Source: a bacterium (GTDB lineage Bacteria; JAJVIF01). Taken from it: a stretch of 64,000 bases of DNA. The notes under the pieces are model-generated. The model was given only the letters and a program-made list of their open reading frames with translations. It was not told where the DNA came from and did not search any database. This document shows, in pieces, positions 8,322 through 43,398 of this stretch (the stretch's first letter is position 1; every line of letters begins with the position of its first letter). The stretch lies in contig JAJVIF010000001.1 in assembly GCA_022072165.1 (NCBI GenBank), positions 1,816,575-1,880,574 on the forward strand. Reading direction: 5' to 3'. A program made the translations under genes and the position numbers.

Positions 8322-8390
8322 GGCGTCCTCCTGTTGAACCATTGTCTCATAGATTGGACGACCGGGCTTAGCGCTGGGCAGCACTCGTGG

Positions 8391-10220
8391 CTACGGCGCG
8401 ACTTTCGGCTCCCGCTTGAAGAGGCCGAATCGCTCCCCTGGGATGGTGACTGTCACAGACCCTTCATAGGCCAGGAGATCCGGGTAGTCGGGGTCCACTG
8501 CGCCAAACTTGTAAGGCCTGAAAATCTGATCTTCTGTCCCTATTTTAGACACTACTTCATTAAATTCAAAAGTGACATTCACAGGACCCGTGGAACGATT
8601 ACAGATGAACAGCAAGACCTCCTCCGTCTTGGTGTATGTCAGCAAGATAGCCAGAATGTCACCCTCGGGGACACCGTCAGGAACCGTAACCTTGTACGTT
8701 TCCCGCCAAGTCGCCCCATTTTGGAACATTCGCAGGTCCGAGTAGTCCGATATCTCCTGCGCCAAAGGCCAGTACCGCTCCTGCAGGCGCTGGCTGGAGG
8801 CGTGATACTGCGCGAAGACCGGGAATCCTTCGCTGCGATAAAAAAGGGCCAGCCACGCGAAGAACCGGAGTTCATCAGGCTCCGGCATACGTCGGGCTCG
8901 GGACTCATCGACTTCAATGTAGCTGGGTCCCACTTCGGGGTTGACGAGACGTGTGATGGGGGGGTTGGGGGCAGGTGTCGTAGTCCAGCCAGGGGGAGCT
9001 GCATCACTGTGATCAAAGGGATGCCCGAAGGCCTGGACCCAAAGGCCAGCAAAGCGATACAGCGTGTCTGCAATCGGAATCCGGCCTGTATGCGGGTAAC
9101 GCCTCTGATTCAATTCCTGCCGGAGTAGCAGGAAATTGTCATGCACCTGTCGGACATCCTGCTTGAGGGTAGTGGTTTCAGAGATCCGCAAGATGTCATC
9201 TGTTTCAGTATCCGTGTAGCCTGCAGATTTCACCTCTGAGCGTAAATTGTAAGGAGCAACTTCCATCTCATGATTAACGCGCTTGTAGGGGTACTTATCA
9301 TACAGATGGATGTCCGCAAAATCGCGAATCTGGAAATAGGTGAACCACTTCTCGGGTGGAACAAAATTAGTGGCCTGTTGGAGACGACGCTCGGCGCGTA
9401 TTTCAAAAAGTCTATTGGAATAGGTCACCAGCACAGGCAGCAAGAGTTCCCATTGTCGCTCCTCATCGACGAGGGCGGCAAACTCGGGATCATTGCCAGT
9501 GGCCATGCGCCATTCCCGCTCATACTGGCGAATCTTGTTGCGTACTTCCAAAATTCTCAGCGGATAGTCCTTTTCTTTCCAGTATTCCTCCCTTTCAAAA
9601 AGCTCTGGCTCATCCACAGAGTACCAGCCGACCAGTCGATCCCCGAGGACTTCCAGTGTGTCCGCAATTACCCCTGCGAAGTTCTCTTCTGCATCGGTTT
9701 CGCTCCCTTCATCGACAACATCCCACTGCAGCAGGTACCGAATATCCCGCTCGGGCAGCACGGCGATCACTTTGGTTTCCGGTGCCAGGTAGTTATCCCG
9801 GTAGTACTCCAGAAAGAGCCGATACCCATCTTCGAGGGTGAAGGGAAACAGGGTGAGATCATCCTGACCGCGATCCGATCCATCACTCCGCTTTCCACTC
9901 CTTGGGGGAGCTTTGGGGGAGCGCTTCAGGCCTTGAGTCGACAGCACGACAACCCGAAATCCTGGTTTCCCAGGGGCTGGGTCCGGGAAATTCGGCTGGC
10001 TGGCCTCGGTTTCGGTTTCATTCCGTCCATACCCCTCAAAGGGGGCGGGGGGATGGGGGGGAGGTGTTGGGGGGAAGAACGACGGTGGCGGATCCGGCAA
10101 CGACCAGGGGAGAATCGTATCCCACATGGCGATCATCGGGATCCCCTCCTTATCTTTAAGCTGCTCTTTCCAGTTCCCCAGGCGCCAGGCGCCGGGGCGG
10201 GCAAGTCTGGTTGTTGTCAT
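8391..10220 (-). CDS. G1: glycoside-hydrolase-like TIM-barrel protein, unknown substrate
   Basis: 609 aa from ATG 10220, preceded by AAGGAG. No signal peptide is visible. After a Trp-rich N-terminus (IAMWDTILPWSLPDP) and a Pro-rich linker, the body contains LVGWYSVDEPELF (DEP motif, about residue 190) and IRDFADIHLYDKYPY (about residue 310). That pairing resembles the barrel strands of clan-A glycoside hydrolases such as beta-galactosidase relatives. The last 130 residues resemble the C-terminal beta-sandwich of such enzymes (VLLFICNRSTGPVNVTFEF, ending IPGERFGLFKREP). It lies between L1 and L2 and is probably cotranscribed with them. The enzymatic assignment is inference from motif layout; no family name can be given. 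Confidence 0.5.
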   Translation of the reverse strand: MTTTRLARPGAWRLGNWKEQLKDKEGIPMIAMWDTILPWSLPDPPPSFFPPTPPPHPPAPFEGYGRNETETEASQPNFPDPAPGKPGFRVVVLSTQGLKRSPKAPPRSGKRSDGSDRGQDDLTLFPFTLEDGYRLFLEYYRDNYLAPETKVIAVLPERDIRYLLQWDVVDEGSETDAEENFAGVIADTLEVLGDRLVGWYSVDEPELFEREEYWKEKDYPLRILEVRNKIRQYEREWRMATGNDPEFAALVDEERQWELLLPVLVTYSNRLFEIRAERRLQQATNFVPPEKWFTYFQIRDFADIHLYDKYPYKRVNHEMEVAPYNLRSEVKSAGYTDTETDDILRISETTTLKQDVRQVHDNFLLLRQELNQRRYPHTGRIPIADTLYRFAGLWVQAFGHPFDHSDAAPPGWTTTPAPNPPITRLVNPEVGPSYIEVDESRARRMPEPDELRFFAWLALFYRSEGFPVFAQYHASSQRLQERYWPLAQEISDYSDLRMFQNGATWRETYKVTVPDGVPEGDILAILLTYTKTEEVLLFICNRSTGPVNVTFEFNEVVSKIGTEDQIFRPYKFGAVDPDYPDLLAYEGSVTVTIPGERFGLFKREPKVAP

Positions 10221-10274
10221 CGATCCAGGGCTCCTTGAGTTCGACACCTCTGCGCCATCAGGAGGCAGGGGAGA

Positions 10275-12086
10275 TCAATAGCTGCCATCAGAGATGGCGA
10301 TGGTAATCGCTTCGTCGGGGGGACCATGCCAGGCGCCAAAGATCCGCCCATCGGGCAGGAGGGCCAGCGCGAAATCCCCGCCCCCTTCGGGGTGAATGGG
10401 GGTCTGCACCCACCCCCCTGCGAGGGTAGGATCGGCAGTCACCTGCCGCCAGAGGACGGGGCCGTTGTCTGACCTGCTGATCCCGATGCCCCGCCCCTCC
10501 AGCACCTCACAGGTCCGGCTCATGCGGAAACCGGTCCGCGGAGCTTTTAACAACAGGGTGTAACCGACCGGGCCCTCGTAGTCTGGCGCTGGCCCTGTCG
10601 TACTGTGCAGTGAGGTACCTGTCCCATAGACACCACCTGTTGCCCCCTGCATCGAGCTCACTACCCGCCAGCGTCGGTCCAACAGCAGGATAGATCCCGT
10701 CGTCGAATGCATACTCTCTATCCCATCATTGCCACCTGCATCGACGAACGACCCCCAGTCCGCGTCGGCCAGAGGAGGCACCTGGGTGGCGCGGGTCAGA
10801 TAGCGGCTGTTGATGGCATCGATCAGGGCCATCAGCGTCCCGCTCGCTTCATGGAAGAGGAGCTGACTGACCCCCGTGGATGTTTTCGGGAAACTCTCCA
10901 GGGCATGCCCCTGCCAGGACCCGGGGCCTGTCGGCGCAAAGCCATCGCAAAAGGCCACCACCGGGCGCCACTTGTTGTACTGGCTGAGAGTCGCATTCAT
11001 AGAGCTATAGCCAACCAGCAGTCCCACCCCCGGCAGGCTGGTCAGGCAGGCCCACTGGATCGCGACTTCGGGGTCTATAGAGGTCGTATCCCAGTCGGCT
11101 TCCCCCGCCGGTTCCTGGAGAGTTGTGGTGGAGAGACACAACCCTTTCGTTGTTGGCGAGTCACCAAAGGTCAGGACATGAAGGCTGTCCGGGGTCGTCG
11201 CCACGATCCGGGTCCCCAGGATCGTCTGCCCCTCGACGATGCGGGAAATCTGCCAGTCCGCCACCGATTGCGGGTCCCCGTGCAGGGCCAGCGCCAGATA
11301 GACGCCATCGTCCCGGGTGAACACCACCCCTGGCCGCTCTCCCCAGACAAAGGCGGCGGGGCCGGGCCACATCCAGGAGAGAGTCGGCCCACTCCCTGTC
11401 GAGGCCGGAGCGACCAGCATCACCCGCCAGGAGGGGGCGACGGGGGGATCGATCCGGAAGCTGAAGGGCTGCACCGCCGTATAGTTCTCGTTGCGGAGCT
11501 CGACGATCCCCTCATAGATCCCGACCTCCCCCAGCGTGACGGTCGGGGTCAGCTCCTCGCTGGTCGCGACATCGGTACCGCCGCTGAAAGTCCAGGTCGC
11601 CTCCGTGGCGGTGCCTGTATGGTCCGCTGCGAAGGTGACCGTCCCCGCCGGCTTCCCCGCCGGGTCGGACGGGGTCACGCCGGTGATCACAATCACCCCG
11701 GTCTCGATGTCGTAGCTGAACGACGCCAGCGCCAGCGCCTGCCCATCGGTAACGGTCAGCCCGCCCGTAAAGCTCCCGGCGGTGGTCAGGCTGACGGTCG
11801 GCGACTCCTCGCCAGACGTCGCGGGCGTCACTCCGCCGCTGAAGGTCCAGGCATAGGTCAGCGGCTGGCCGGAGGAGGAATCGACCTGCGCGGCAAACTC
11901 CACACTCCCCCCTTCTGCGCCAAGAGTCCCCGAGGGCGTAATCCCCTGAATGTCAATCATGTGCGGGCCTCGCTGCCCCCGACATCCGGCCAGCATCCCC
12001 AGCACCAGACAGAGCAGCACCAGCGGCAGCCGTCGTAAGGGGGGCATCGACCCGATCCCGGTCCATAGTGCAGTACTCCAGCGCAT
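10275..12086 (-). CDS. PKD-domain lipoprotein L2
   Basis: 603 aa, intact. ATG 12086 has the same AGGAGG leader as L1 and L3. Lipobox GMLAGC, then two PKD-like domains nearly identical to those of L1 and L3, ending at SWRVM. The C-terminal 370 residues are its own: repeating units such as DGVYLALALHGDPQSVADW and PGVGLLVGYSS suggest a propeller or sialidase-like fold, ending in ISDGSY. The conserved half is presumably the envelope anchor and stalk, the variable half the recognition part. Expected location is the cell surface or periplasm. It follows G2 and precedes G1. Function unknown. Confidence 0.7.
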   Translation of the reverse strand: MRWSTALWTGIGSMPPLRRLPLVLLCLVLGMLAGCRGQRGPHMIDIQGITPSGTLGAEGGSVEFAAQVDSSSGQPLTYAWTFSGGVTPATSGEESPTVSLTTAGSFTGGLTVTDGQALALASFSYDIETGVIVITGVTPSDPAGKPAGTVTFAADHTGTATEATWTFSGGTDVATSEELTPTVTLGEVGIYEGIVELRNENYTAVQPFSFRIDPPVAPSWRVMLVAPASTGSGPTLSWMWPGPAAFVWGERPGVVFTRDDGVYLALALHGDPQSVADWQISRIVEGQTILGTRIVATTPDSLHVLTFGDSPTTKGLCLSTTTLQEPAGEADWDTTSIDPEVAIQWACLTSLPGVGLLVGYSSMNATLSQYNKWRPVVAFCDGFAPTGPGSWQGHALESFPKTSTGVSQLLFHEASGTLMALIDAINSRYLTRATQVPPLADADWGSFVDAGGNDGIESMHSTTGSILLLDRRWRVVSSMQGATGGVYGTGTSLHSTTGPAPDYEGPVGYTLLLKAPRTGFRMSRTCEVLEGRGIGISRSDNGPVLWRQVTADPTLAGGWVQTPIHPEGGGDFALALLPDGRIFGAWHGPPDEAITIAISDGSY

Positions 12087-12155
12087 GGCGTCCTCCTGTC
12101 ACCCTATTGTCGCATCGATCGGACGACTTCGGTAAAGCCATGCAGGAGCGAGCGT

Positions 12156-12701
12156 CTACGGAACGAAAGGCTCCAACTTAAACATGGCAATCCGCTCCCC
12201 GGGGAGGGAAATAGACCCTGCCGCTTGCAACTGAAACGCCAGGAGGACCGGTAAGTCCTCGGAGTCCACCACCGCCTCCCCGAATCTGTACGGGCGGAAG
12301 ACCTGGGCTGCTCCATCTTTAAATCCGATCTCGTCTTTGAATTCAAACCGAATATTTGTTTTTGCCGGGCCTCCCTTACGGTTGTAGACAAACAGCCATA
12401 CTTCACTGAGAGGATTTGGATATCCTGGCGGTTTAGTATACGTTACAACCTTCGCGAAAATATCCGGATCCCCGGCTGGATCAAAGCTATATAGCCCTTC
12501 CCATGTGGCCAAATCATGATACACTCGCAGATCAGAGAAACGATCAATTTCCTGTGCAACAGGCAAAAATCGTTCCTGCAATCGCTGGCTGGAAACATGA
12601 AACTGTGCAAAGACAGGAAACCCTTCGCTGCGGTTAAAGAGTGCGAACCATGCGAAAAATCGCAGCTCATCGGCCGAGGGCAAGCGCCTCCCGCGCATCA
12701 T
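12156..12701 (-). pseudogene. G2 C-terminal part, downstream of an in-frame amber codon
   Basis: In the same frame as the 12804-13961 ORF and separated from it by TAG at 12804-12806. The bases between the TAG and this ATG (12701) still encode residues aligning with G1 (ASGYPFDHNAASPDW against AFGHPFDHSDAAPPGW), so the original gene was continuous. This part holds LPSADELRFFAWFALFNRSEGFPVFAQ and the C-terminal beta-sandwich ending LPGERIAMFKLEP. Separate translation from 12701 is possible, but no clear ribosome site was seen. Confidence 0.6.
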
Positions 12702-12803
12702 ATGTACTTCCGTTTTCTCTGGGTTCGTCAGCGGAGGATTGGGAGCCGGTGTCGTTCTCCAGTCTGGAGAGGCTGCATTATGATCGAACGGGTAGCCACT
12801 CGC

Positions 12804-13961
12804 CTAGGCCCAGAGACCTGCATAGCGATAGGCACTGTCCCCCATGCTGATCTTACCCGACGCGGGATAGCGATATTGGTTCAGTTCGCGTCGCAACAAC
12901 GCGAAGTTGTTGTGCACCTCATTGACATTCTGCCGCAGCGTTGTAAACACTGAATTATTCAGGATCTCGTCAGCCTTCGCCGGCGTTAGGCCAGAATCGA
13001 GCAATTGTCGCCTCAAATTTGGTGCGGGTTCATCCACCCAGCTGGTCTTATACGGATACTCATCATACAAATGAATGTCCGCAAATTCACGTCCCAGGAA
13101 GAAGGTGAAGCGCAGCTCGGGTGGGACATTGCGTTCAGCCTGCTGAGTCCACCGATCATTTCTCATTGTAAATATACGGGCGGAGTAGGTAACGATGACA
13201 GGCAGCAGTAGCTCCATCTGTCTGTCATAGGACGGGATGGCCGCAAACCCCGGATCATTGCCGGGGGTTGTCCGCCATGCCCATTCATACTGGCGAATAT
13301 ACTGGCGAACTTCCTGAACTCGCACAATCTTTTCCTTATAATATTCAGTTCTGTCAAACAGTTCCGGCTCATCCACAGAGTACCAGCCCACCAACTGATC
13401 CCCAAGGACCTCCAGCGTGTCTTCGATTACCCCTTTGAAGTTCGCTTTTGCATCGCTCTCGTTCCCAAACTTCTCCCACTCCAGCAGGTAGCGAATATCC
13501 CGCTCGGGCAGCACGACGACCACATAAGTCTTGGGGTCCAGGTAATTATCCCGGTAATACTCCAGAAAGAGCCGATACCCATTGGGGAGCGTGAAAGGAA
13601 AGTGGACGGTATCATCCTTGCCGCGATCCACTCCATCTCGTTTCCCACTTCGGGGAGGCGCCACCGCTGAGCGCTTCAAGCCTTGCGTCGACAGCACCAC
13701 GACCCGAAAACCCTGTTCCCCGGTGGCTGGGACCGGGAAGTTCGGCTGGCTGGCTTCGGTTTCGGTTTCATTCCGCTCATAGCCCTCAAAGGGGGCGGGG
13801 GGAGGCGATGGCGGGAAGAACGGCGGTACCGGATCCGGCAACGACCAGGGGAGAATCGTATCCCACACTGCGAGCATTGGAATTCCGATCTTGCCCTCGA
13901 TGCGATGCTTCCAGTTCCCCAGGCGCCAGGCGCCGGGGCGGGTCGGTTCTGGTAATGTCAT
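12804..13961 (-). CDS. G2: glycoside-hydrolase-like protein, N-terminal part, ends at a premature TAG
   Basis: 385 aa from ATG 13961, preceded by GGGAGGA. A paralog of G1 with the same landmarks: WDTILPWSLPDP, a Pro-rich linker, LVGWYSVDEPELF and GREFADIHLYDEYPY. It stops at RYAGLWA followed by TAG, where G1 reads RFAGLWVQAFG; the stop replaces the Gln codon of G1 (CAG to TAG is one change). The truncated product would lack the last third of the barrel and the beta-sandwich, so it is probably inactive unless the amber codon is read through. TAG is an ordinary stop elsewhere in the window. Confidence 0.6.
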   Translation of the reverse strand: MTLPEPTRPGAWRLGNWKHRIEGKIGIPMLAVWDTILPWSLPDPVPPFFPPSPPPAPFEGYERNETETEASQPNFPVPATGEQGFRVVVLSTQGLKRSAVAPPRSGKRDGVDRGKDDTVHFPFTLPNGYRLFLEYYRDNYLDPKTYVVVVLPERDIRYLLEWEKFGNESDAKANFKGVIEDTLEVLGDQLVGWYSVDEPELFDRTEYYKEKIVRVQEVRQYIRQYEWAWRTTPGNDPGFAAIPSYDRQMELLLPVIVTYSARIFTMRNDRWTQQAERNVPPELRFTFFLGREFADIHLYDEYPYKTSWVDEPAPNLRRQLLDSGLTPAKADEILNNSVFTTLRQNVNEVHNNFALLRRELNQYRYPASGKISMGDSAYRYAGLWA

Positions 13962-14012
13962 CTCTGTAGTCCTCCCGTGGTTTACAACCTCACAGCTAAC
14001 CCGGTGGTGGGA

Positions 14013-15821
14013 TCAGTAACTCCCATCGGAGATCGCGACGCTGAGCGCTCCAAGGGGGGGGCCGTACCACGCGCAGAAGATGCGCCCATCCGGCAGGATA
14101 GCCAGGGAGCTATCAGCTCCACCGACCGGATGAATCGGTTCCCGCTTCCAGCCTTCGACGAACGTGGGATCGGCCGTCACCTGTCGCCAGAGGACCGGGC
14201 CGCTGCCTGAGCTGCTGATCCCGATGCCCCGCCCTTCCAGCACCTCACAGGTTCGGCTCATGCGGAAACCGGTGAATGGGTCTCGGAGCAGCAGCAAGGG
14301 CTCAAAGGGCGCGTCGTAATCCGGCGCGGCGGCAGTGCAGCTGTTGAGCACCGAGGTTTTGACATACTCACCGGCGTATGTATCACTCGTGCTCGAGATC
14401 ACCCGCCAGTGCTTCGCGAGATGCAGGATGGAACCTGTGGAGGTGTGGATAATGTCTATGCCATCACTGCTGGCAGCTCTGACGAAGGCCTCCCAGTCCG
14501 CGTCGGCCAGAGGAGGCACCTGGGTGGCACGGGCCAGATAACGGCTGCTCCCTGCATCGACCAGGGCCATCAACATCCCGCTTTCTTCCTGAAAAAGCAA
14601 CTGGCTGATCCCTGTCGCCAGCACGGGAAAACTCGCTATCTCATGCCCCTGCCAGGACCCGGGGCCCGACGGTGCAAAGCCATCACAAAAAGCCACCACC
14701 GGGCGCCACTTGTTGTACTGGCTGAGATCCGCATTCTTAGAGCTGTAGCCAACCAGCAGTCCCACCCCTGGCAGGCTGGTCAGGCAGGCCCACTGGTCTT
14801 CGACGGCAGGATCAATGGAGGTCGTACTCCAGTCGGCTTCCCCCGCCGGTTCCTGGACAGTCGTGGTGGAGAGATACAACACGTCCGTCGTCGGCGAGTC
14901 ACCAAAGGTCAGGACATGAAGGCTGTCCGGCGTCGTCGCCACGATCCGGGTCCCCAGGATCGTATGCCCCTCGACGATGCGGGAAATCTGCCAGTCCGCC
15001 ACTGTTTGAGGGTCCCCGTGCAGGGCCAGCGCCAGATAGACGCCATCTTCCCGTGTAAAGACCACGCCCGGCCGCTCCCCCCAGACAAAGGCGGCAGTGC
15101 CCGGCTCAAGCCATGAAAAGATGGGGAGCTCCGCGTATGCCGGACCCAGCAGCATCACCCGCCAGGAAGGGGCGACGGGAGGATCGATCCGGAAGCTGAA
15201 GGGCTGCACCGCCGTATAGTGGTCATTCCGGAGCTCGACCGTCCCCTCATAGATCCCGACTTCCCCCAGCGTGACGGTCGGGGACAGTTCCTCACTGGTC
15301 GCGACATCGGTGCCGCCGCTGAAAGTCCAGGTCGCCTCCGTGGCGGTGCCTGTATGCTCCGCAGCGAAGGTGACCGTCCCCGCCGGCTTCCCCGCCGGGT
15401 CGGACGGGGTCACCCCGGTGATCACAATCACCCCGGTCTCGATGTCGTAGCTGAACGACGCCAGCGCCAGCGCTTGCCCATCGGTGACGGTCAGCCCCCC
15501 GGTAAAACTCCCGGCGGTGGTCAGGCTGACGGTCGGCGACTCCTCGCCAGACGTCGCGGGCGTCACTCCGCCGCTGAAGGTCCAGGCATAGGTCAGCGGC
15601 TGGCCGGAGGAGGAATCGACCTGCGCGGCAAACTCCACACTCCCCCCTTCTGCGCCAATAGTCCCCGAGGGCGTAATCCCCTGAATGTCAATCATGTGCG
15701 GGCCTCGCTGCCCCCGGCATCCGGCCAGCATCCCCAGCACCAGACAGAGCAGCACCAGCGGCAGCCGTCGTAAGGGGGGCATCGACCCGATCCCGGTCCA
15801 TAGTGCAGTACTCCAGCGCAT
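14013..15821 (-). CDS. PKD-domain lipoprotein L3
   Basis: 602 aa, intact, and the first gene of the array in the direction of transcription. ATG 15821 has AGGAGG upstream. Lipobox GMLAGC, two PKD-like domains identical or nearly so to L1, then a C-terminal half closer to L2 than to L1 (DGVYLALALHGDPQTVADW, RMSRTCEVLEGRGIGIS) ending ISDGSY. The mosaic pattern, with 5' end like L1 and 3' half like L2, indicates recombination among copies. A T9 run and GC-poor sequence upstream (about 15860-15950) may carry the array promoter, but no clear -35/-10 pair was found. Confidence 0.7.
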   Translation of the reverse strand: MRWSTALWTGIGSMPPLRRLPLVLLCLVLGMLAGCRGQRGPHMIDIQGITPSGTIGAEGGSVEFAAQVDSSSGQPLTYAWTFSGGVTPATSGEESPTVSLTTAGSFTGGLTVTDGQALALASFSYDIETGVIVITGVTPSDPAGKPAGTVTFAAEHTGTATEATWTFSGGTDVATSEELSPTVTLGEVGIYEGTVELRNDHYTAVQPFSFRIDPPVAPSWRVMLLGPAYAELPIFSWLEPGTAAFVWGERPGVVFTREDGVYLALALHGDPQTVADWQISRIVEGHTILGTRIVATTPDSLHVLTFGDSPTTDVLYLSTTTVQEPAGEADWSTTSIDPAVEDQWACLTSLPGVGLLVGYSSKNADLSQYNKWRPVVAFCDGFAPSGPGSWQGHEIASFPVLATGISQLLFQEESGMLMALVDAGSSRYLARATQVPPLADADWEAFVRAASSDGIDIIHTSTGSILHLAKHWRVISSTSDTYAGEYVKTSVLNSCTAAAPDYDAPFEPLLLLRDPFTGFRMSRTCEVLEGRGIGISSSGSGPVLWRQVTADPTFVEGWKREPIHPVGGADSSLAILPDGRIFCAWYGPPLGALSVAISDGSY

Positions 15822-16045
15822 GGCGTCCTCCTGTTGAACTCCGGTCACCTGTACGCCTCAGTTTACGATACTTTTTTTTTCGAGGTGTCAAGGGGGGGAT
15901 GGAGCCCGTTTTCTGATTCTCTCATCATTTGTTTATCGCCCAGCTTTTCGCTCTGCTTCTCGCCCAGACTCTTGCCCGCCCGGTGCCGGCCCCGGGGGAG
16001 CCAGCGGCGCTGCTAGACTCCGGGAGGCGAAGGGGGGCGGAGCCG

Positions 16046-24655: not shown

Positions 24656-24913
24656 ATGAAGCAGTCCAATCTGAGAGTACGCACCCTGGCCAGTGTCATG
24701 ACGCTGCTCTTCACGCTCGGCGTGGCTGGTGCTGCGCTGGCAGCGCCGGTGCAGGGCGCCGATTCTTCTCGTCCAGGAGTGACCTGTGACAAGGATGGAA
24801 AGGGCGACTCCAAAGACGGCAAGAAGGGCAAAGAGGGGAAGAAGGGGAAGAAAGGCAAAAAGGGGAAAGGCAAAGGGAAGAATGGCAACGGCGGCGGGCA
24901 GGGGGGTCGCTAG
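24656..24913 (+). CDS. small exported Lys/Gly-rich protein
   Basis: 85 aa with ATG 24656. A clear Sec signal peptide (LRVRTLASVMTLLFTLGVAG, then ALAAP cleavage site near residue 30) precedes a mature part of about 55 residues. The last 35 are almost only Lys and Gly (repeats of GKKGK, ending NGNGGGQGGR). Such a polycation would bind anionic polymers such as nucleic acids, LPS or polysaccharide; that is inference. Single gene, followed by a strong hairpin terminator at 24950-24977. No homolog family recognised. The low complexity means database hits would be unreliable. Confidence 0.6.
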   Translation: MKQSNLRVRTLASVMTLLFTLGVAGAALAAPVQGADSSRPGVTCDKDGKGDSKDGKKGKEGKKGKKGKKGKGKGKNGNGGGQGGR

Positions 24914-25882: not shown

Positions 25883-26314
25883 ATGTGGCGCATGTTCCGC
25901 CGACACCCATCGCGAGGAGCGCTGGTCAGCATGATGCTGGCTGCTTTCTTCATGGCGGTGCAGAGTGTCGTGTTGTTGCGGACTGCGGATCTCTCAGCGG
26001 AATGCCGCTGTTGTCAGATCCAGGTTGCGAACTTCAGCAGCGACACCATCGATGCAACATCCGTGACCTGTTGTGTCGCTGAAAGTGCCGTCGGACTGGC
26101 TTCAGAGTCAGCCGGGAGCGAGGTGCCAGCAGAGCGCGGCGCATGTCAGTGCGACCAGCCCTGCTGTGCGGTCCCGCCAGGTGTGCCTCTGGCGATGCTG
26201 CCACCCGTAATGGGCTTTACGGTCGGGCTCCCGATGTCCGATGACATTCATACCGGCGATCTATGCCTTCCCGCCTGGTCCGTTTCTGTGCCTCACGGCC
26301 CTCCCCGAAGTTGA
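25883..26314 (+). CDS. Cys-rich exported or membrane-anchored small protein
   Basis: 143 aa from ATG 25883. Basic start (MWRMFRRHPSRG) then a hydrophobic segment (ALVSMMLAAFFMAVQSVVLL) that is a signal peptide or anchor. The mature part has cysteine clusters ECRCCQIQV, VTCCVAE and GACQCDQPCCAVPP, seven to nine Cys within 90 residues, resembling metal sites. It immediately precedes the far more Cys-rich protein at 26395; its stop codon lies within an inverted repeat that continues into the leader of that gene. The two are likely functionally linked, perhaps in metal binding. Confidence 0.55.
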   Translation: MWRMFRRHPSRGALVSMMLAAFFMAVQSVVLLRTADLSAECRCCQIQVANFSSDTIDATSVTCCVAESAVGLASESAGSEVPAERGACQCDQPCCAVPPGVPLAMLPPVMGFTVGLPMSDDIHTGDLCLPAWSVSVPHGPPRS

Positions 26315-26375: not shown

Positions 26376-26394
26376 AAAACGAGGTTAATCCACC

Positions 26395-26913
26395 ATGTGG
26401 ACCTCTCTGTTTGCTGACTCGGCGCGTCTGGCTCTGACTGCCTTCTGCGCCTGCTTTCTGATCGCGGGTACCACTGCCTGGGCCGCGCCGCAAGCCGCCG
26501 ATGCCTCCTGCACCGCAGCCTGCTGCGACCTGTGCGCCTGTGATGCCTGCGACTGCTGTCCCGCCGAGGACTGCTGCGCGGCTGGCACCTGCTGCGAGAA
26601 CGGCGACTGTTGCGCCGATGGAGCCTGTGCCTGCGAGGCGTGTGAGTGCGCCTCCGCCTGCTGCTCCGTTGCTGGCTGCTGCGCGGCTGGCACCTGCTGC
26701 GAGAACGGCGACTGTTGCGCCGATGGAGCCTGTGCCTGCGAAGCGTGCGAATGCGTCACCTGCGCGTGCGATGCCTGCGACTGCTCCACCGGCTGCTGCG
26801 CCAAAGACGCCTGCTGTGCCGATGGTGGGTGCTGTGCCGATGGCACCTGCTGCGAGAGTGGCGACTGCTGTGCGGATGGTGCCTGCACCTGCGAAGGATG
26901 CGCCTGCGCCTAA
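26395..26913 (+). CDS. ultra-cysteine-rich exported repeat protein (metallothionein-like composition)
   Basis: 172 aa. Signal peptide (SARLALTAFCACFLIAGTTA, then WAAPQA) and a mature chain of about 135 residues containing 48 Cys, mostly as CC and CxC pairs: CCDLCACDACDCC, CCAAGTCCENGDCC, ADGACACEACEC. The unit CCAAGTCCENGDCCADGACA is repeated twice with 66 identical bases and a third time in diverged form (CCADGTCCESGDCC). Other residues are mainly Ala, Gly, Asp and Glu. This composition suits a soft-metal or cluster store, or a disulfide-knotted wall protein. No metallothionein signature can be asserted. Followed by a terminator, then by the Rrf2-SUF region. Confidence 0.65.
   Translation: MWTSLFADSARLALTAFCACFLIAGTTAWAAPQAADASCTAACCDLCACDACDCCPAEDCCAAGTCCENGDCCADGACACEACECASACCSVAGCCAAGTCCENGDCCADGACACEACECVTCACDACDCSTGCCAKDACCADGGCCADGTCCESGDCCADGACTCEGCACA
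26571..26741 (+). repeat. internal direct repeat of the Cys-rich gene
   Basis: Bases 26571-26636 and 26676-26741 are identical (66 bp) with a period of 105 bp (35 codons). Conservation of synonymous sites implies recent unit duplication or conversion. Confidence 0.8.
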
Positions 26914-26938
26914 GCTGCGCACCTGCTGAATCTTCCTG

Positions 26939-26970
26939 GCAGCCCGGCACTGGTCGGGCTGCTCTGTTTT
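26939..26970 (+). terminator. intrinsic terminator
   Basis: An 8-bp stem GCAGCCCG / CGGGCTGC with an 8-nt loop, followed by TCTGTTTT, lies 26 bases after the Cys-rich gene. Confidence 0.75.
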
Positions 26971-27065: not shown

Positions 27066-27080
27066 GGACCAAATTGGTCC
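27066..27080. promoter_or_regulatory. candidate Rrf2 operator
   Basis: Perfect palindrome GGACCAA-A-TTGGTCC, 25 bases ahead of the GTG start of the Rrf2 gene and its AAGGAGGG ribosome site. Its position suits autoregulation of the suf operon by the Fe-S-sensing Rrf2 protein. That link is inference. Confidence 0.45.
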
Positions 27081-35610: not shown

Positions 35611-35776
35611 TCGTTCCATTCTTCCCGACTCCGTCAGTGACTTCGGTCAAATCAGCCTCGCGGACGCCCGTCGCCTGTGACCTGGCTCACCCCTGCGATG
35701 CTTCGGACTCCTCAGAATGCTGGATGAGGAGCGGCTTTGCGGGCTCCTGATGCAGCGACTCCAGAGGCGGCTCAAC

Positions 35777-36859
35777 ATGCAGGTCTTGTCCTACCAGGTG
35801 GTGACTCCATCCGCCCCGATGGTCTGGACACCTCGTGAGGAAACCCCGGGTCCCCGTGAGGTCCTGGTGGCCGTGGAAGGATGTGGGGTTTGCCACACTG
35901 ATCTGGGATTCTTCTATGACGGGGTCCCGACCCGGCACCCCTTTCCGTTGACGCTGGGCCATGAGGTGAGCGGTCGCGTCGTGGCGACCGGCCCTGGCGC
36001 GGAAGTCTGGCTGAATGAGGCGGTCATCGTGCCAGCCGTAATTCCCTGCGGGACCTGTCCGGCCTGTCGGGCAGGACGCGGCACGGTCTGCCCGCAGCAG
36101 GTCTTCCCCGGCAGCGACCTCCATGGCGGATTCGGGACCCATCTGCGCGTCCCGGCACATGGCCTTTGCCCGGTCCCTGATCTGAATGATCCCCTGACGA
36201 ATCCTGCCGGACTGACGTTGGCAGATCTCTCAGTCATAGCTGATGCTGTCTCCACGCCCTATCAGGCCATTGTCCGAAGCGAACTGCAGCCCGGCGACCT
36301 GGCGATCTTCATCGGCGCTGGTGGCATTGGAGGGTTCGGGGTCCAGTTGGCAGCTGCGATGGGCGCACATGTGATTGCCATCGATGTGAATGAGCGGCGG
36401 CTGTCGCTGATGGCGGAGCATGGCGCTACTCTGGGACTGCGGGCAGATGCACTCGACTTCAAGGCGTTGCGGCAGGCTGTCCAGCATCAGGCCTCACTGC
36501 TTGAGGTGCCGTCCTGGCGGACCGTCATCTTCGAAACCTCCGGGACCGCAAAGGGCCAGGAACTGGCATTCGGGCTCCTGGGACATGGCAGTACGTTGAT
36601 GGTGGTTGGGTTTACCAGCGACAAGGTGCAGGTGCGCCTCTCGAATCTCATGGCTTTTGATGCCCGGGCGATGGGGAACTGGGGCTGCCTTCCGGAGCAC
36701 TACCCCGCCGTGCTGCAGCTCGTCCTCTCCGGAGCCGTGCAACTCCGGCCGTTTGTGGAGCATCACCCGCTGAGCGCGATCAACGACATTTTTCCCGCCC
36801 TGCATGAACGACGCATTACCCGCCGCGTGATTCTTCAGCCTGCCGGAGGTACCGCATGA
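35777..36859 (+). CDS. had: 6-hydroxycyclohex-1-ene-1-carbonyl-CoA dehydrogenase
   Basis: 360 aa from ATG 35777 (an alternative start at 35717 would add 20 residues). Zinc-dependent medium-chain alcohol dehydrogenase: catalytic zinc site GCGVCHTDLGFF and GHEVSGRVVATG, structural zinc lobe CGTCPACRAGRGTVC, and Rossmann loop GAGGIGGFGVQLAAAMG. In anaerobic benzoyl-CoA degradation it oxidises the hydroxyl formed by Dch to the 6-oxo compound with NAD+. The specific substrate is inferred from its place directly before oah, dch and bcrCBAD. It overlaps oah by 4 bases and opens the operon. Confidence 0.88.
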   Translation: MQVLSYQVVTPSAPMVWTPREETPGPREVLVAVEGCGVCHTDLGFFYDGVPTRHPFPLTLGHEVSGRVVATGPGAEVWLNEAVIVPAVIPCGTCPACRAGRGTVCPQQVFPGSDLHGGFGTHLRVPAHGLCPVPDLNDPLTNPAGLTLADLSVIADAVSTPYQAIVRSELQPGDLAIFIGAGGIGGFGVQLAAAMGAHVIAIDVNERRLSLMAEHGATLGLRADALDFKALRQAVQHQASLLEVPSWRTVIFETSGTAKGQELAFGLLGHGSTLMVVGFTSDKVQVRLSNLMAFDARAMGNWGCLPEHYPAVLQLVLSGAVQLRPFVEHHPLSAINDIFPALHERRITRRVILQPAGGTA

Positions 36860-37995
36860 CTCTCAAAGATCACACGCTGGCAGCGTCGCCAGCGCAGTCG
36901 GGTGTGCTGTACGAAGAACGTCCGCTCACCACACTGGATGGAGCCTCCCATCCGGTGCTGCATACAGTGTGGATCACGCTGGACAACCCCAGCCAGCTCA
37001 ACAGCTACACCACCGATATGGTGAAGAGCGTTATTCTCGGGATGCGACGCGCCTCCGCCGACCGGGCCGCGGTAGCCGTCGTTTTTACGGGGACTGGCAC
37101 GCAGGCGTTTTGCACCGGGGGCAACACCAAGGAGTACGCGGAGTACTACGCCGGTCGCCCTGAGGAGTACCGCCAGTACATGCGGCTCTTCAACGACATG
37201 GTGAGCAGCATCCTGATGTGCGACAAGCCCGTCATTTGTCGTGTCAACGGGATGCGGCTGGCGGGAGGGCAGGAAATTGGGATGGCCTGTGATTTTTCGG
37301 TCGCCCAGGACCTGGCCCTCTTTGGGCAGGCGGGGCCGCGTCATGGTTCAGCCCCGGACGGCGGGTCCACCGACTTTCTTCCGCTCTTTGTCGGCATTGA
37401 GGCCGCAATGGAAAGCTGTACGCTCTGCGAGCCCTGGAGCGCCCACAAAGCCATGCAGCTGGGGTTACTGACCAACATCACCCCAGCCCTCCGTGTGGGC
37501 GACACCTGGCATCCCAATCCCCTGGTCATCACCGATCAACTGCTCGATGCCTATGGGCGTCCGGTCCTCGGTACCCCCAAGTCTGGCGAGGCCCGGGATG
37601 CCGGAAAGTCGCTTTTGCAGTCAGGAACCCTCGATCTGACCCTCCTCGATGAAGCCGTGGAGCAGCTCATCTGGAAGCTCGCCAACACGATGCCCGGCTG
37701 CCTGAGCAAAACGATCGAGAGTGTCAGAAAGCACAAGCTGGAGCACTGGGACCGCAACAAAGAAAGCAATCGCGCCTGGCTCGCGCTAAACATGATGACT
37801 GAAGGGCGCGCTGGTTTCCGGGCCTTCAATGAGGGCACCAAGGCCTGTCGGGAAGCTGACTTTCTCCTGATCCGTCAGCGCATCGCGGAAGGGGTAGGCT
37901 GGAACGATGCGCTGACCGCGGAAGCCCTGGCGAAGGTTCACGCTTCTGCCAATGGGCAGCTGCAGTCCTCCTGGAACGAGGCCAGCGGCCAATGA
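36856..37995 (+). CDS. oah: 6-oxocyclohex-1-ene-1-carbonyl-CoA hydrolase
   Basis: 379 aa, longer than an ordinary crotonase as expected for Oah. It hydrates and opens the ring of 6-oxocyclohexene-carbonyl-CoA to give 3-hydroxypimelyl-CoA. Crotonase-fold segments: DNPSQLNSYTTDMVKSVILG, TGTQAFCTGGNTKEYAEYYA (oxyanion-hole region, characteristic of Oah), NGMRLAGGQEIGMACDFSVA and GPRHGSAPDGGSTDFLPLFV. Stop and start overlaps of 4 bases on both sides tie it to had and dch. Confidence 0.93.
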   Translation: MTLKDHTLAASPAQSGVLYEERPLTTLDGASHPVLHTVWITLDNPSQLNSYTTDMVKSVILGMRRASADRAAVAVVFTGTGTQAFCTGGNTKEYAEYYAGRPEEYRQYMRLFNDMVSSILMCDKPVICRVNGMRLAGGQEIGMACDFSVAQDLALFGQAGPRHGSAPDGGSTDFLPLFVGIEAAMESCTLCEPWSAHKAMQLGLLTNITPALRVGDTWHPNPLVITDQLLDAYGRPVLGTPKSGEARDAGKSLLQSGTLDLTLLDEAVEQLIWKLANTMPGCLSKTIESVRKHKLEHWDRNKESNRAWLALNMMTEGRAGFRAFNEGTKACREADFLLIRQRIAEGVGWNDALTAEALAKVHASANGQLQSSWNEASGQ

Positions 37996-38774
37996 CCACC
38001 GCCGCCACCCTGGACCCGGTCCATCTCGACCTTCAGCACGAAGGCGCACTGGCCGTCGTGACGTTGTCAGGACCGCCCGGCAATGTCCTCGATCTTCCAA
38101 TGATGCAGGCGCTGTCGACCACCCTGACAGCACTGAGCGCCCAGCCTGCCCTGCGGGCCGTGGTCCTCACCGGCGCGGGGAAGCACTTTTCTTTTGGAGC
38201 CAGCGTACCGGAGCATCTGCCAGAGCGTGTCGGCACCATGCTGCCGAGTTTTCACCAGCTGATGCTGCAGGTGCTGAAGTTTCCGGTGCCGGTCATGGCC
38301 GCGATCCGGGGGGCCTGCCTGGGTGGTGGGCTGGAGCTGGCACTGGTTTGCCACCGGATCGTGGGAACTGCGGAGTGCCGACTGGGGCAGCCGGAAATCA
38401 CGCTCGGCGTCTTTGCACCGGTCGCATCCGTACTCCTCGCCTCCCGGATTGGACAGGCCCGGGCGGAGGATCTCTGTCTCACCGGCCGTGTCATTGAGGC
38501 GCCAACCGCCCTCGCCTGGGGACTGCTTGACGACGTCACCGATGATCCGGTCGCCGCCTCGATTGACTGGGCTGTCGCCCACTACCTCCCCCGCTCAGCG
38601 GTCGCTCTGCGTCATGCCATGCGGGCGCTCCGCTGGCAGCTGATTCAGCAGATGCAGCAGCTCTTGCCGCTGCTGGAACATGCCTACCTCAACGAACTCA
38701 TGGCCACGGCTGATGCCACCGAGGGGTTGCAGGCGTTTCTGGAAAAGCGATCCCCACTCTGGAGGCATGAATGA
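37992..38774 (+). CDS. dch: cyclohexa-1,5-diene-1-carbonyl-CoA hydratase
   Basis: 260 aa crotonase-family enzyme. It adds water to the dienoyl-CoA made by benzoyl-CoA reductase. Segments: GPPGNVLDLPMMQALSTTL, TGAGKHFSFGASVPEHLPER (oxyanion hole), AAIRGACLGGGLELALVCHR and LGQPEITLGVFAPVASVLL. Assignment to Dch rather than a generic hydratase rests on the SFGASVPEH pattern and on its position between oah and bcrC. Overlaps both neighbours by 4 bases. Confidence 0.9.
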   Translation: MTTAATLDPVHLDLQHEGALAVVTLSGPPGNVLDLPMMQALSTTLTALSAQPALRAVVLTGAGKHFSFGASVPEHLPERVGTMLPSFHQLMLQVLKFPVPVMAAIRGACLGGGLELALVCHRIVGTAECRLGQPEITLGVFAPVASVLLASRIGQARAEDLCLTGRVIEAPTALAWGLLDDVTDDPVAASIDWAVAHYLPRSAVALRHAMRALRWQLIQQMQQLLPLLEHAYLNELMATADATEGLQAFLEKRSPLWRHE

Positions 38775-39958
38775 GTACTGCAGCCCCCCCGCTGTCGGCC
38801 CGACAGCAGTTTTTGCGACGAGCCGAGGACTGTTACCGCGATTACTCCCTGCAGAGCGTGCAGGACTGGAAGGCGGCAACCGGAGGCCTCGCCATCGGCT
38901 ACATGCCGATCTACATCCCGCGGGAGTTACTGCATTCCCAGGGTGTCCTGCCCGTGGGACTCATGGGGGGGGGCGATGACCTGGAGATCATCCGTGGGGA
39001 TGCCTACTACCAGTCTTACATCTGCCACATTCCCCGCAGCACGATTGAACTGGGGCTCAATGGCTCGCTGGATCCCCTGGATGGCATGCTCTTCCCCGCG
39101 ATCTGCGATGTGATCCGCAATCTCTCGGGGATGTGGAAGCTCCTCTTCCCCGACAAGTTTGCGATGTACCTCGATGTCCCGCAGGATTTTCACAGGCTAC
39201 GCGGTGGTCGGTTCTGGCGCCAGGAACTGGAGCAGTTGGCGTCGCAACTGACCGCCTGTGGCGCTCGCCCCTATGACCCGGATGCCCTGCGGGAAAGCCT
39301 CGCGCTCTACAACACCAATCGCCGACTGGTGCAAGCTCTCTACGACCTGCGTATCAGGGAGCCATGGCGAGTGCCTACCAGCGAGTTGTATCCACTGCTG
39401 CGCGCAGGCATGGTCCTGCCAGTTGAAACTTTTACCTCGTGGCTTGAAGAGTTTTATCAGCTTCTGCTGGCCGATGACACCTGCCGTCCGATGGATCAGG
39501 CACGGGTGCTGCTCACGGGATCCTTCTGCGAGCAGCCACCCCTGGGGCTCATCCGGACTCTCGAGAGGGCGGGGTGCTACATCGTGGATGACGACTTCGC
39601 GATCATCCATCGCTGGCTGCAGCATGACATCCCCCTGGAGGGAGATCCGCTGGAGAATCTGGCGAATGCGTTTCTCGAGGATGCGATGGCCAGTCCGACA
39701 CGCTACATCGACGAAGCGGTGAAGGGTGCCGAATTGGTGCAGCGGGTCCAGGCGAGTCGTGCGGAGGGGGTCCTCTTCTGTGCGCCCAGCTTTTGTGATC
39801 CGGCTCTGCTTGATCAGCCAATGACAGTCGCCGCGATTGAAGCAGCCGGCATCCCCTGGACCGCGTTTAAGTACAGCGAAAACACCGGGCAGTTTCAGGT
39901 GATCCGGGAGCAGGCCGGCACCTTTGCTGATGCCCTCAAACTCTGGAGCGGACACTGA
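38771..39958 (+). CDS. bcrC: benzoyl-CoA reductase gamma subunit (BcrC/BzdN)
   Basis: 395 aa, of the HgdB/2-hydroxyglutaryl-CoA dehydratase family. With BcrB it forms the substrate-reducing half of class I benzoyl-CoA reductase and holds Fe-S clusters. Family traits: IGYMPIYIPRELLHSQGVLP near the N-terminus, DAYYQSYICHIPRSTIE and LFPAICDVIRNLSGM (cysteine ligands), then SFCEQPPLGLIRTLERAGCY and LFCAPSFCDPALLDQPMTVA. Length and gene order match bcrCBAD of Thauera and bzdNOPQ of Azoarcus. It overlaps dch by 4 bases. Confidence 0.9.
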   Translation: MSTAAPPLSARQQFLRRAEDCYRDYSLQSVQDWKAATGGLAIGYMPIYIPRELLHSQGVLPVGLMGGGDDLEIIRGDAYYQSYICHIPRSTIELGLNGSLDPLDGMLFPAICDVIRNLSGMWKLLFPDKFAMYLDVPQDFHRLRGGRFWRQELEQLASQLTACGARPYDPDALRESLALYNTNRRLVQALYDLRIREPWRVPTSELYPLLRAGMVLPVETFTSWLEEFYQLLLADDTCRPMDQARVLLTGSFCEQPPLGLIRTLERAGCYIVDDDFAIIHRWLQHDIPLEGDPLENLANAFLEDAMASPTRYIDEAVKGAELVQRVQASRAEGVLFCAPSFCDPALLDQPMTVAAIEAAGIPWTAFKYSENTGQFQVIREQAGTFADALKLWSGH

Positions 39959-39962
39959 CACC

Positions 39963-41246
39963 ATGAGCACTTCCCCACCCGTCGTGCAGAAGGACTCCAG
40001 CCAGATTCGCCAGAAGGAGATGATTGCGGCGCACTTCCATCGTCTGGCGCTCTCCCCGGAGACCGGCGAGAACAACGTGTACACCTTCGTCCCCGGCAAT
40101 CTGACCGAGCTCATCCGGGCCTTTGATCTGCTGCCGGTCCTGCCGGAAATCAATGCGCTGCAGTCAGGGATGCGGGGGAAGAGTCGCGAGTACATCGCGC
40201 TGGCGGAAAAAGCTGGCCACTCCGAAGATGTCTGCACCTATGTGAAGTGCGATCTGGGCATGATGAAGTCCGGCAACATCGGGCCCACCGGCGAGCGGCT
40301 GCCCGACCCCGACCTCCTGCTGCTCTCCTACACCGGCTGCTTCACTTTCCTCAAGTGGTTCGAGATTCTGCAGCAGGAATACAAAGCCCCCGTGGTGATG
40401 CTCCATGTCCCCTATCAGGGCGATGGAACCATCACCCCTCACATGCGGGACTATGTGGTGGAGCAGCTCCGGGACAAAGTGATTCCTGCCCTCGAAGAGA
40501 TCTCAGGGCAAGCCTATGATGAAGCCAAACTGAAAGGCCTCCTCGCCAGGTCCCGCCAGGCGGAGGACGATCTGGTCTGGGTCCTCCAGTCCGCCCGCCA
40601 TCGCCCCTCGCCCATCGATGCCTACTTTGGGGCGGTCTACTACGTCGGCCCCATCTTCAGTGCCTTTCGGGGTACTGAAGAAGCGGTCGGCTATTACCGT
40701 GCCCTGCGGGAAGAAGTCGAAGAGCGCATGGCTGCCGGTCTGGGACCGGTGACACCGGAAGGACAGCTGGCGGAAGAGCGTTATCGGGTGGTAGTGGAGG
40801 GTCCGCCAAACTGGACCAGCTTCCGTGAGTTCTGGCAGATGTTCGTCGATGAAGGTGCGGTGGTGGTCGCCTCCACCTACACCAAAGTCGGTGGCACCTA
40901 TGACTTTGGTTTCCGCCACGATCCGGAGCACCCGCTGGAGACCCTCGCTGATTACTGTCTGGGGTGCTACACGAATCTCAACTTTCCCAGTCGCATCGAC
41001 ATGCTCTGCCGGTACATCGAGGAATACCAGGCCGATGGATTTCTCATTAACTCCGTGAAGAGCTGTAACTCCTTCAGCGCGGGACAGTTACTCATTCTGC
41101 GGGAGGTGGAGCGACGCACCGGCCGGCCCGGCGGCTTCATTGAAAGTGACCTGGTCGACCCCCGGTACTTCTCTCCCGCCAATATCAAGAACCGGCTGGA
41201 GTCGTACTTCCAGATGCTGGACCAAAAGCGGAGCGGAGGTCACTGA
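39963..41246 (+). CDS. bcrB: benzoyl-CoA reductase beta subunit (BcrB/BzdO)
   Basis: 427 aa from ATG 39963; the frame opens upstream inside bcrC but this start follows the bcrC stop directly. HgdB-family: EDVCTYVKCDLGMMKSGNIG, LLLLSYTGCFTFLKWFEILQ, and LINSVKSCNSFSAGQLLILR contribute the cysteines expected for the catalytic half. VKVGGTYDFGFRHDPE-type and RPGGFIESDLVDPRYFSPAN segments match BcrB. It pairs with BcrC; the two receive electrons from BcrA-BcrD. Its stop overlaps the bcrA start by one base (TGATG). Confidence 0.92.
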   Translation: MSTSPPVVQKDSSQIRQKEMIAAHFHRLALSPETGENNVYTFVPGNLTELIRAFDLLPVLPEINALQSGMRGKSREYIALAEKAGHSEDVCTYVKCDLGMMKSGNIGPTGERLPDPDLLLLSYTGCFTFLKWFEILQQEYKAPVVMLHVPYQGDGTITPHMRDYVVEQLRDKVIPALEEISGQAYDEAKLKGLLARSRQAEDDLVWVLQSARHRPSPIDAYFGAVYYVGPIFSAFRGTEEAVGYYRALREEVEERMAAGLGPVTPEGQLAEERYRVVVEGPPNWTSFREFWQMFVDEGAVVVASTYTKVGGTYDFGFRHDPEHPLETLADYCLGCYTNLNFPSRIDMLCRYIEEYQADGFLINSVKSCNSFSAGQLLILREVERRTGRPGGFIESDLVDPRYFSPANIKNRLESYFQMLDQKRSGGH

Positions 41247-42520
41247 TGGACTACTGTGTCGGCATTGACCTCGGCTCCACGACGACAAAAGCGGTCGTGA
41301 TAGCTGATACCGGGGCGATCCTCGGACGGGGGATCACCAACAGTCGCTCCAGCTATGACGCGGCGTGTCAGGTCGCACTCACTGAAGCACTGATCAACAC
41401 CCGCTTCGGTCTGATCAAAGAGGGTCTGCCACCCTCAGCCCTTGCCGAACTCGACACCTTCGAATTGGCGTTTCGCCAGGCGCAGTATCGACAGCAGCTC
41501 GACCTGCTCCGAACCACGCTTCATCAGGTCTGTACCGACCTGCAACTGGATGCCGTCTACCACGGCGCTATCGACTCCATCCTGGAGCAAATGGAAGCCG
41601 AAGCCCCTGCCCTCTATGCCCCCGGAGCCAGCCGCAAGAGCGACTTCTTCCGGGACCTCGGAGGAAGCCGATATCTGCAGCTCGCTGAGCGCATCGCACG
41701 GCAGACGCAGCTCCCCTACGACCTGCTCGTTGGGCTCTTCGACAAAGCAATTCTGCTGGTCGAGAACACGGTGGATGCCGCGGCGGAGTTTGGGCCGCTG
41801 TCGGCGATGGCACTCTCTTTGGTTCCGGACGCCTCAGAGGCATTGCGACGGGAAGTCGACCGGGTCGCGGCGCTGGAGCTCGTCCAGGAGGCGAGTGTCG
41901 GGACAGGCTATGGCCGGCAAAAGCTCCCGTTCCCGGAAAAGCAGATTCGTTCTGAGATTCTGTGTCACGGTCTCGGGGCACATGCCATGTTTCCCGGCAC
42001 CCGGACGGTCCTCGACATCGGCGGACAGGACACCAAAGCCATCCAGGTCGATGAGGCGGGCATCGTCACCAGCTTTCAGATGAACGACCGCTGTGCCGCA
42101 GGCTGCGGACGCTATCTCGGTTACATCGCCGATGAGATGAACCTGGGCCTGCATGAGCTTGGCCCGATCGCCGAGGCTTCGCGCAGGCCTGTCCGGATCA
42201 ACTCCACCTGCACGGTGTTCGCGGGGGCGGAATTGCGTGAGCGGCTCTCCCTGGGTGAGGAGCGCGAGGACATCCTCGCCGGATTGCATCGCGCCATCAT
42301 CCTGCGAGCACTCTCACTCCTTGCCCGGTCCGGCGGAGTCGAGGATGAGTTCACTTTTACCGGTGGAGTCGCCCGCAATCCTGCCGCCGTGAAAGCCCTT
42401 CGCCAGTTGATCGAGGACAACTACGGGTCCCGGCAGATGAACATCTCGCCGGACTCCATCTACACCGGAGCGCTGGGGGCAGCCCTGTTCGCGCTTCGCA
42501 GCACCGCGCAGGCGGCCTGA
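41246..42520 (+). CDS. bcrA: benzoyl-CoA reductase alpha subunit (BcrA/BzdP), ATP-dependent
   Basis: 424 aa. ASKHA-type ATPase of the HgdC family that drives electrons to the catalytic half with ATP. Phosphate loop YCVGIDLGSTTTKAVVIADT at the N-terminus, second phosphate motif VLDIGGQDTKAIQVDE near residue 260, then NDRCAAGCGRYLGYIADEMN and NSTCTVFAGAELRERLSLGE, which bear the cysteines for the [4Fe-4S] cluster shared with BcrD. A middle insertion of about 170 residues (residues 60-230) separates it from the smaller BcrD and is typical of BcrA. Confidence 0.93.
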   Translation: MDYCVGIDLGSTTTKAVVIADTGAILGRGITNSRSSYDAACQVALTEALINTRFGLIKEGLPPSALAELDTFELAFRQAQYRQQLDLLRTTLHQVCTDLQLDAVYHGAIDSILEQMEAEAPALYAPGASRKSDFFRDLGGSRYLQLAERIARQTQLPYDLLVGLFDKAILLVENTVDAAAEFGPLSAMALSLVPDASEALRREVDRVAALELVQEASVGTGYGRQKLPFPEKQIRSEILCHGLGAHAMFPGTRTVLDIGGQDTKAIQVDEAGIVTSFQMNDRCAAGCGRYLGYIADEMNLGLHELGPIAEASRRPVRINSTCTVFAGAELRERLSLGEEREDILAGLHRAIILRALSLLARSGGVEDEFTFTGGVARNPAAVKALRQLIEDNYGSRQMNISPDSIYTGALGAALFALRSTAQAA

Positions 42521-42540
42521 CAACAGGGGGCATTCCGCAC

Positions 42541-43398
42541 ATGACTCTGAGCGAACAGCCGGTGATCAGCGTCGGCTTCGATGTGGGGACTTCGACTGTC
42601 AAACTCGCAGTCATCCGTGAAACGGGTCCGGGTGAAATCACCCTGCTGCATCAGGCGACCGAGCGCACTCGACGTCGCAATCCATCGGAGGTCGCCGCCG
42701 GACTCTTCGATGTCGGACTCGAGAGCCTGGGCCTGAAAGCTGCAGATCTGGCGTATGTCGCGACCACGGGTGAAGGCGAAGTCGTGGAGTTCCGCACCGG
42801 GCATTTTTATGGCATGACCACCCACGCCCGCGGCGGGCTCTTCCTCGAACCGGAAGCCTGCGCCATCATCGATATCGGCGCACTCCATACCCGGGCAGTG
42901 CTGATGGACTCGCAGGCGAAAGTCCTGGGGTATCGCATGACCAGCCAGTGCGCCTCCGGGAGTGGCCAGTTCCTGGAAAACATCAGCCGGTACCTCGGTG
43001 TCACCATTGATGAGATCGGTCCCCTCTCATTGACAGCCGACAAGCCCGAAGTCTCCAGTTCGATTTGTGCCGTCCTGGCGGAGACTGATGTGATCAACCT
43101 GGTCTCACAGGGCATCAGCATTCCTAGCATCCTCAAGGGGATTCACTTGTCAATGGCCCAGCGTTACGTCCGGCTCCTGACCAGCGCCCGGGCACAGGGT
43201 GTCGTGCTGGTCACCGGTGGACTCGCCTACGATGTCGGGCTCATGGCCACCTTGCGGGAAGCGGCCGCCGAGCAGCAGGCACCGCTGGAGTTCCGGACTC
43301 ACCCGCAATCCATCCTGGCGGGCGCGATCGGGGCTGCGATCTGGGGTGCCTACCGGGCCCGCAAACTCGCACTGGAACCAACCGGAGTCGCGGCATGA
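42541..43398 (+). CDS. bcrD: benzoyl-CoA reductase delta subunit (BcrD/BzdQ), ATP-dependent
   Basis: 285 aa. Second ASKHA subunit; with BcrA it makes the ATPase/electron-activating half. Phosphate loop SVGFDVGTSTVKLAVIRETG, then IIDIGALHTRAVLMDSQAKV, and cluster cysteines in MTSQCASGSGQFLENISRYL and SSSICAVLAETDVINLVSQG. C-terminal LVTGGLAYDVGLMATLREAA completes the adenosine site. All four subunits of a class I (ATP-dependent, O2-sensitive) enzyme are thus present. No ferredoxin gene adjoins. Overlaps the SDR gene by 4 bases. Confidence 0.93.
   Translation: MTLSEQPVISVGFDVGTSTVKLAVIRETGPGEITLLHQATERTRRRNPSEVAAGLFDVGLESLGLKAADLAYVATTGEGEVVEFRTGHFYGMTTHARGGLFLEPEACAIIDIGALHTRAVLMDSQAKVLGYRMTSQCASGSGQFLENISRYLGVTIDEIGPLSLTADKPEVSSSICAVLAETDVINLVSQGISIPSILKGIHLSMAQRYVRLLTSARAQGVVLVTGGLAYDVGLMATLREAAAEQQAPLEFRTHPQSILAGAIGAAIWGAYRARKLALEPTGVAA

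Follow-up and report, generated by a model that had tools for sequence, protein, structure and literature searches.

Bacterial metallothioneins of the classical kind are small, and most of them reside in the cytoplasm, a location that is usual and not strict. Chlamydial cysteine-rich outer-membrane proteins and keratin-associated proteins are disulfide-linked structural proteins. The Pseudomonas metallothionein PmtA is surface-accessible without a signal peptide (PMC11237414), and Csp1 is a Tat-exported four-helix bundle, the core of which binds 13 Cu(I) per monomer (PMC7558416). Here we analyzed a gene for a Cys-array protein from a bacterium of the GTDB lineage JAJVIF01, in a sparsely sampled phylum. 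A limited and partial literature search gave no direct precedent for a metallothionein-like CC array that is both exported and this large. As judged from its sequence, the likeliest role of the protein is either the trapping of metals outside the cytoplasm or disulfide bonding. With its 48 cysteines in a unit that duplicates, such an exported protein would lend itself naturally to use as a modular metal trap or as a disulfide polymer.

Gene model and reading frame

The DNA read was a stretch of 64,000 nt, called the window (assembly GCA_022072165.1, contig JAJVIF010000001.1, positions 1,816,575-1,880,574 of the forward strand). The features of the locus, numbered by window position, are the following.

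25883-26314, plus strand: possible partner gene upstream, encoding a 143-aa exported protein (7% Cys; weak coding support)
26381-26385, plus strand: Shine-Dalgarno-like GAGGT, a 5-base match 9 nt before the ATG
26385-26888, minus strand: overlapping Gln/Ala/Ser-rich ORF, judged an antisense shadow of the repeats (ORF list, codon, GC and pN/pS analyses)
26395-26913, plus strand: Cys-array protein gene, 172 aa (ORF, codon, repeat-divergence and signal-peptide analyses)
26395-26484, plus strand: predicted Sec signal peptide MWTSLFADSARLALTAFCACFLIAGTTAWA, cut before APQA (rule-based test and sequence)
26545-26649, plus strand: 35-aa repeat copy 1 (repeat comparison)
26650-26754, plus strand: 35-aa repeat copy 2, 89% DNA identity to copy 1
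26803-26907, plus strand: 35-aa repeat copy 3, 71% DNA identity to copy 1
26938-26963, plus strand: intrinsic terminator, 11-pair stem and then a U-rich tail, ending the unit before rrf2

A sequence-only reading had described the ORF as an exported protein with a signal peptide and about 135 mature residues, over a third of them (48) cysteine, in CC and CxC pairs within a 35-residue repeat. Rule-based prediction agreed on the signal peptide, and the other figures held with a small correction of length. The ORF contains 50 Cys, 48 of which lie beyond the predicted cleavage site (between AWA and AP, residue 30). They make up 33.8% of a mature part of 142 aa, or 35.6% if its length is taken as 135. 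The repeat unit of 105 nt is present in three copies with the core CCx4CCx4CCx4CCx4CxCx2CxC. The mature part is strongly acidic, with 25 D/E, one Lys and no Arg, and His, Phe, Trp and Tyr are absent from it. Among all window ORFs of at least 80 aa the Cys fraction of this one is 0.29, compared with 0.11 for the runner-up. Across the genome the pattern CCx4CCx4CC has 7 occurrences, every one within this gene, and a reversed control gave none. Copies 1 and 2 appear recently duplicated because they are 89% identical, and the protein, which is probably disordered, seems to have grown by duplication of the 35-residue unit. AlphaFold2 did not fold the apo chain with confidence (pLDDT 51, pTM 0.27), a result that single-sequence runs often give anyway and that is expected if metals or disulfides order the chain.

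The Cys ORF looks like a genuine, if unusual, gene. Runs of TGC open frames in several registers. The main rival to be tested was a shadow of the minus ORF, because the two frames share a wobble position, the minus ORF has the more gene-like GC profile of the two and pattern scans often return shadow Cys frames. According to this rival the Cys ORF would not be protein-coding and would be the antisense shadow of the minus-strand ORF or of a non-coding repeat; repeats often yield spurious Cys-rich frames. GC content by codon position is coding-like for the minus ORF (0.75/0.54/0.75), whereas that of the Cys ORF (0.55/0.76/0.75) is typical of shadow frames. Conditional codon usage, however, preferred the plus frame. 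The Cys frame scored +0.171, inside the range that true genes cover (0.207, sd 0.094), and the minus frame 0.065; the gap between them ranks at the 10th percentile among true genes and, on the assumption that the Cys frame is a shadow, at the 99.6th. The +2 frame scored higher on this measure (0.328) and was rejected as coding frame: it does not span the gene, opening only at 26646, and it owes its score to CTG codons.

In place of a check of the frame across relatives, we compared the repeat copies within the gene, and this comparison supports the Cys frame. Between copies the Cys frame had a pN/pS of 0.28-0.31 and the minus frame one of 0.31-0.39; in each of the four remaining frames it was at least about 0.8. 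Amino-acid changes fell short of the number expected from random substitution (P = 0.045, 0.001 and 0.0005, one value for each pair of copies). By itself this test cannot tell apart two frames sharing a wobble position, and the low ratio of the minus frame also suits the shadow explanation. Against a shadow stand the signal peptide, which a simple rule assigned to the Cys ORF alone among 350 non-coding-like ORFs (180 kb of genome), the Shine-Dalgarno match, a stop codon two triplets ahead of the ATG in the same frame, the co-oriented neighbour genes and the plus-strand terminator. The minus ORF begins with GTG inside the repeat and lacks a visible ribosome-binding site. Taking the evidence together, we are confident that the plus-strand Cys ORF is the true frame and consider a shadow very improbable.

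Neighbourhood and the SUF operon

The gene had been linked to the adjacent Rrf2-SUF operon. Downstream of it come the terminator and then rrf2 (GTG at 27106), the product of which scores above the cutoff of the SUF regulator model. The Rrf2-type palindrome GGACCAAATTGGTCC at 27066-27080 sits before rrf2 only; its nearest other copy in the window, at 33003, has 3 mismatches, and there is no other. This palindrome is a candidate Rrf2 autoregulatory operator. Because it is confined to the region upstream of rrf2 and the terminator intervenes, co-regulation with SUF is not indicated, and we dropped the proposed link. SufB was not found in three related genomes at E 1e-20.

The preceding gene had been read as a second Cys-rich exported protein. 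This is plausible for the upstream 143-aa ORF, although its codon support is weak; the ORF weakly resembles (E 0.02) an exported protein of likewise 143 aa at another locus, L252. The latter protein contains CCC and heads a run (11182-14534 of L252) with a 352-aa exported protein, two lipoproteins, one of them DUF4920, and a MacB/FtsX permease, which is possibly a metal or redox envelope system. Three genes upstream of the Cys-array gene, 24656-24913 encodes an exported 85-aa Lys/Gly-rich low-complexity protein with a charge opposite to that of the acidic Cys protein. No gene in the immediate neighbourhood was recognised as metal resistance, and Rfam gave no element near the gene. Elsewhere in the window, the genes at 35717-43398 have, on inspection by eye, the look of a cluster for anaerobic degradation of aromatics (benzoyl-CoA reductase-type), with BadF/BadG-like ATPases among them, and several minus-strand ORFs in 6822-15848 have the stretch MRWSTALWTGIGSMPPLRRLPLVLL in common (repeated genes).

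Occurrence and look-alike arrays

The gene is single-copy in its genome. In the set searched, the order is represented by the host genome only and the phylum by four genomes, host included; the protein was absent from the three others. Pfam and NCBIfam, searched with E up to 1, gave no match, metallothionein models included, and a sequence search of solved structures gave none either. Scans of genomes and viral contigs with whole-protein peptide patterns returned no confirmed relative. A tblastn search against plasmids and phages found no relative, a result weakened by the low-complexity filter.

Bare CCx4 DNA patterns return mostly out-of-frame trinucleotide repeats and were dropped in favour of the more specific CCxxGxCCxDGxCxC, with which we scanned 84,980 species genomes and 2.9 million viral contigs. 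It matched 8 stretches in the genomes and 2 in the viral contigs. Judged in frame, two of the 8 genome matches are credible CCx4 arrays in plausible proteins, one from Planctomycetota (L259, exported) and one from Sutterella (L258, with no evident signal); the other six are, by eye, shadow or chance frames. Together with a phage protein (L257), these two have real-looking arrays of CCK(D/E)G(K/E) units. The phage protein of 113 aa (543-884 of a 178-kb contig) carries its CC pairs in CC(K/E)DG(K/E) repeats; it fell into no PHROGs or NCBIfam family, and Pfam gave nothing significant.

Homologues of the Planctomycetota protein occur in 3 of 101 other genomes of its order. Across the four genomes (L259/L310, L311, L312 and L313) the frame is conserved, the start is signal-peptide-like, array length varies and the C-terminal domain is conserved, with a weak LptD_N match below the cutoff (E 0.044); the family is unannotated. 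Like the Cys-array protein it combines a signal-peptide-like start with a CCx4CC array ending in CxC, and unlike it has Lys-rich linkers and the conserved C-terminal domain. We see no sign of common descent beyond the repeat pattern. An array profile run against 392 sampled Planctomycetota genomes found the array in one and no further one. The most economical reading is that CCx4 arrays grew independently and recurrently and do not form a single family. The scattered look-alikes suggest that Cys arrays arise repeatedly and escape annotation, being overlooked by low-complexity filters and family libraries.

Such a distribution would also suit a recently expanded low-complexity exported protein that has no particular biochemical function, or that serves as a passive store of sulfur or thiols. 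The occurrence in one genome only, the recent duplication of copies 1 and 2 and the sporadic similar arrays in Planctomycetota point in this direction. However, Cys positions are retained between the diverged repeat copies, substitutions favour synonymous sites, and cysteine is costly to synthesise. We regard this explanation as unlikely.

Possible roles: metal sink or disulfide polymer

Our best guess, held tentatively, is that the Cys-array protein traps metal by thiolates outside the cytoplasm. If expressed, it would be exported by Sec and its signal peptide removed. The CC and CxC thiols of the mature chain could then form thiolate clusters with soft metal ions such as Cu(I), Zn(II) and Cd(II), and these clusters, lying outside the cytoplasm, would form a high-capacity, metallothionein-like sink with a possibly protective role. 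Metal binding is favoured by the metallothionein-type CC/CxC spacing and the lack of aromatics and His in the mature part, and the frame-conserved exported CCx4 arrays in Planctomycetota lend it further support. It is weakened by the strong acidity of the chain, basic residues offsetting the thiolate charge in most metallothioneins, and by the lack of a match to metallothionein models or structures and of a recognised metal gene nearby.

A thiol-rich chain outside the cytoplasm can moreover be oxidised, and the genome encodes VKOR, which also weakens the case for metal. The protein could also be an exported structural protein, the intermolecular disulfides of which cross-link an envelope, surface or sheath layer. 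Fixed-spacing CC pairs, export and an acidic low-complexity chain are consistent with cross-linking, as is the disulfide-forming VKOR, which the host encodes with its Cys pairs and which was not found in the three other genomes of the phylum. The VKOR gene adjoins one for a multihaem CxxCH protein (1483-3383 of L269). On the other hand, the host genome gave no Thioredoxin_4 (DsbA-like) partner in a search that was positive in 9 of 14 control genomes. Predicted exported proteins with 1-10 Cys showed no bias to even numbers (24 even, 44 odd) and had less Cys than cytosolic ones (0.7% vs 1.3%), both counts covering 0.98 Mb of genome with crude start, signal and gene calls. We consider cross-linking a substantial possibility that ranks behind metal trapping.

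A bolder version of metal trapping, which we put forward as doubtful, is a secreted, highly acidic, modular metallothionein analogue with its own origin in this lineage, in which each 35-residue unit would add a metal-thiolate cluster. The arrays of Planctomycetota, Sutterella and a large phage would then be parallels of independent origin, and CCx4 cysteine arrays would have been invented recurrently as tunable metal sinks.

Overall, the protein resembles several described systems in part. Chlamydial OmcA/OmcB and keratin-associated proteins are likewise Cys-dense, exported or extracellular, and rich in CC pairs. Csp1 is a bacterial metal store that is also exported and Cys-rich (PMC7558416). 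Csp1 has a Tat signal and a four-helix bundle with Cys lining the core, whereas the Cys-array protein carries a Sec-type signal and CC repeats, and no fold is predicted for it: the N-terminus MWTSLFADSARLALTAF is without RR, the single-sequence model shows no confident fold (pLDDT 51), and neither solved structures, searched by sequence, nor Pfam gave a match. With metallothioneins in general it has in common high Cys in CC/CxC and few aromatics, in the absence of a curated model match, and its signal-peptide-like N-terminus predicts export in place of their usual cytoplasmic location. SmtA/BmtA, PmtA and MymT share its very high Cys content in CC/CxC-type spacing and its paucity of aromatics, but they are smaller (PmtA about 9 kDa) and have no classical signal peptide, whereas the Cys-array protein has a signal peptide, is acidic and is built from repeats.
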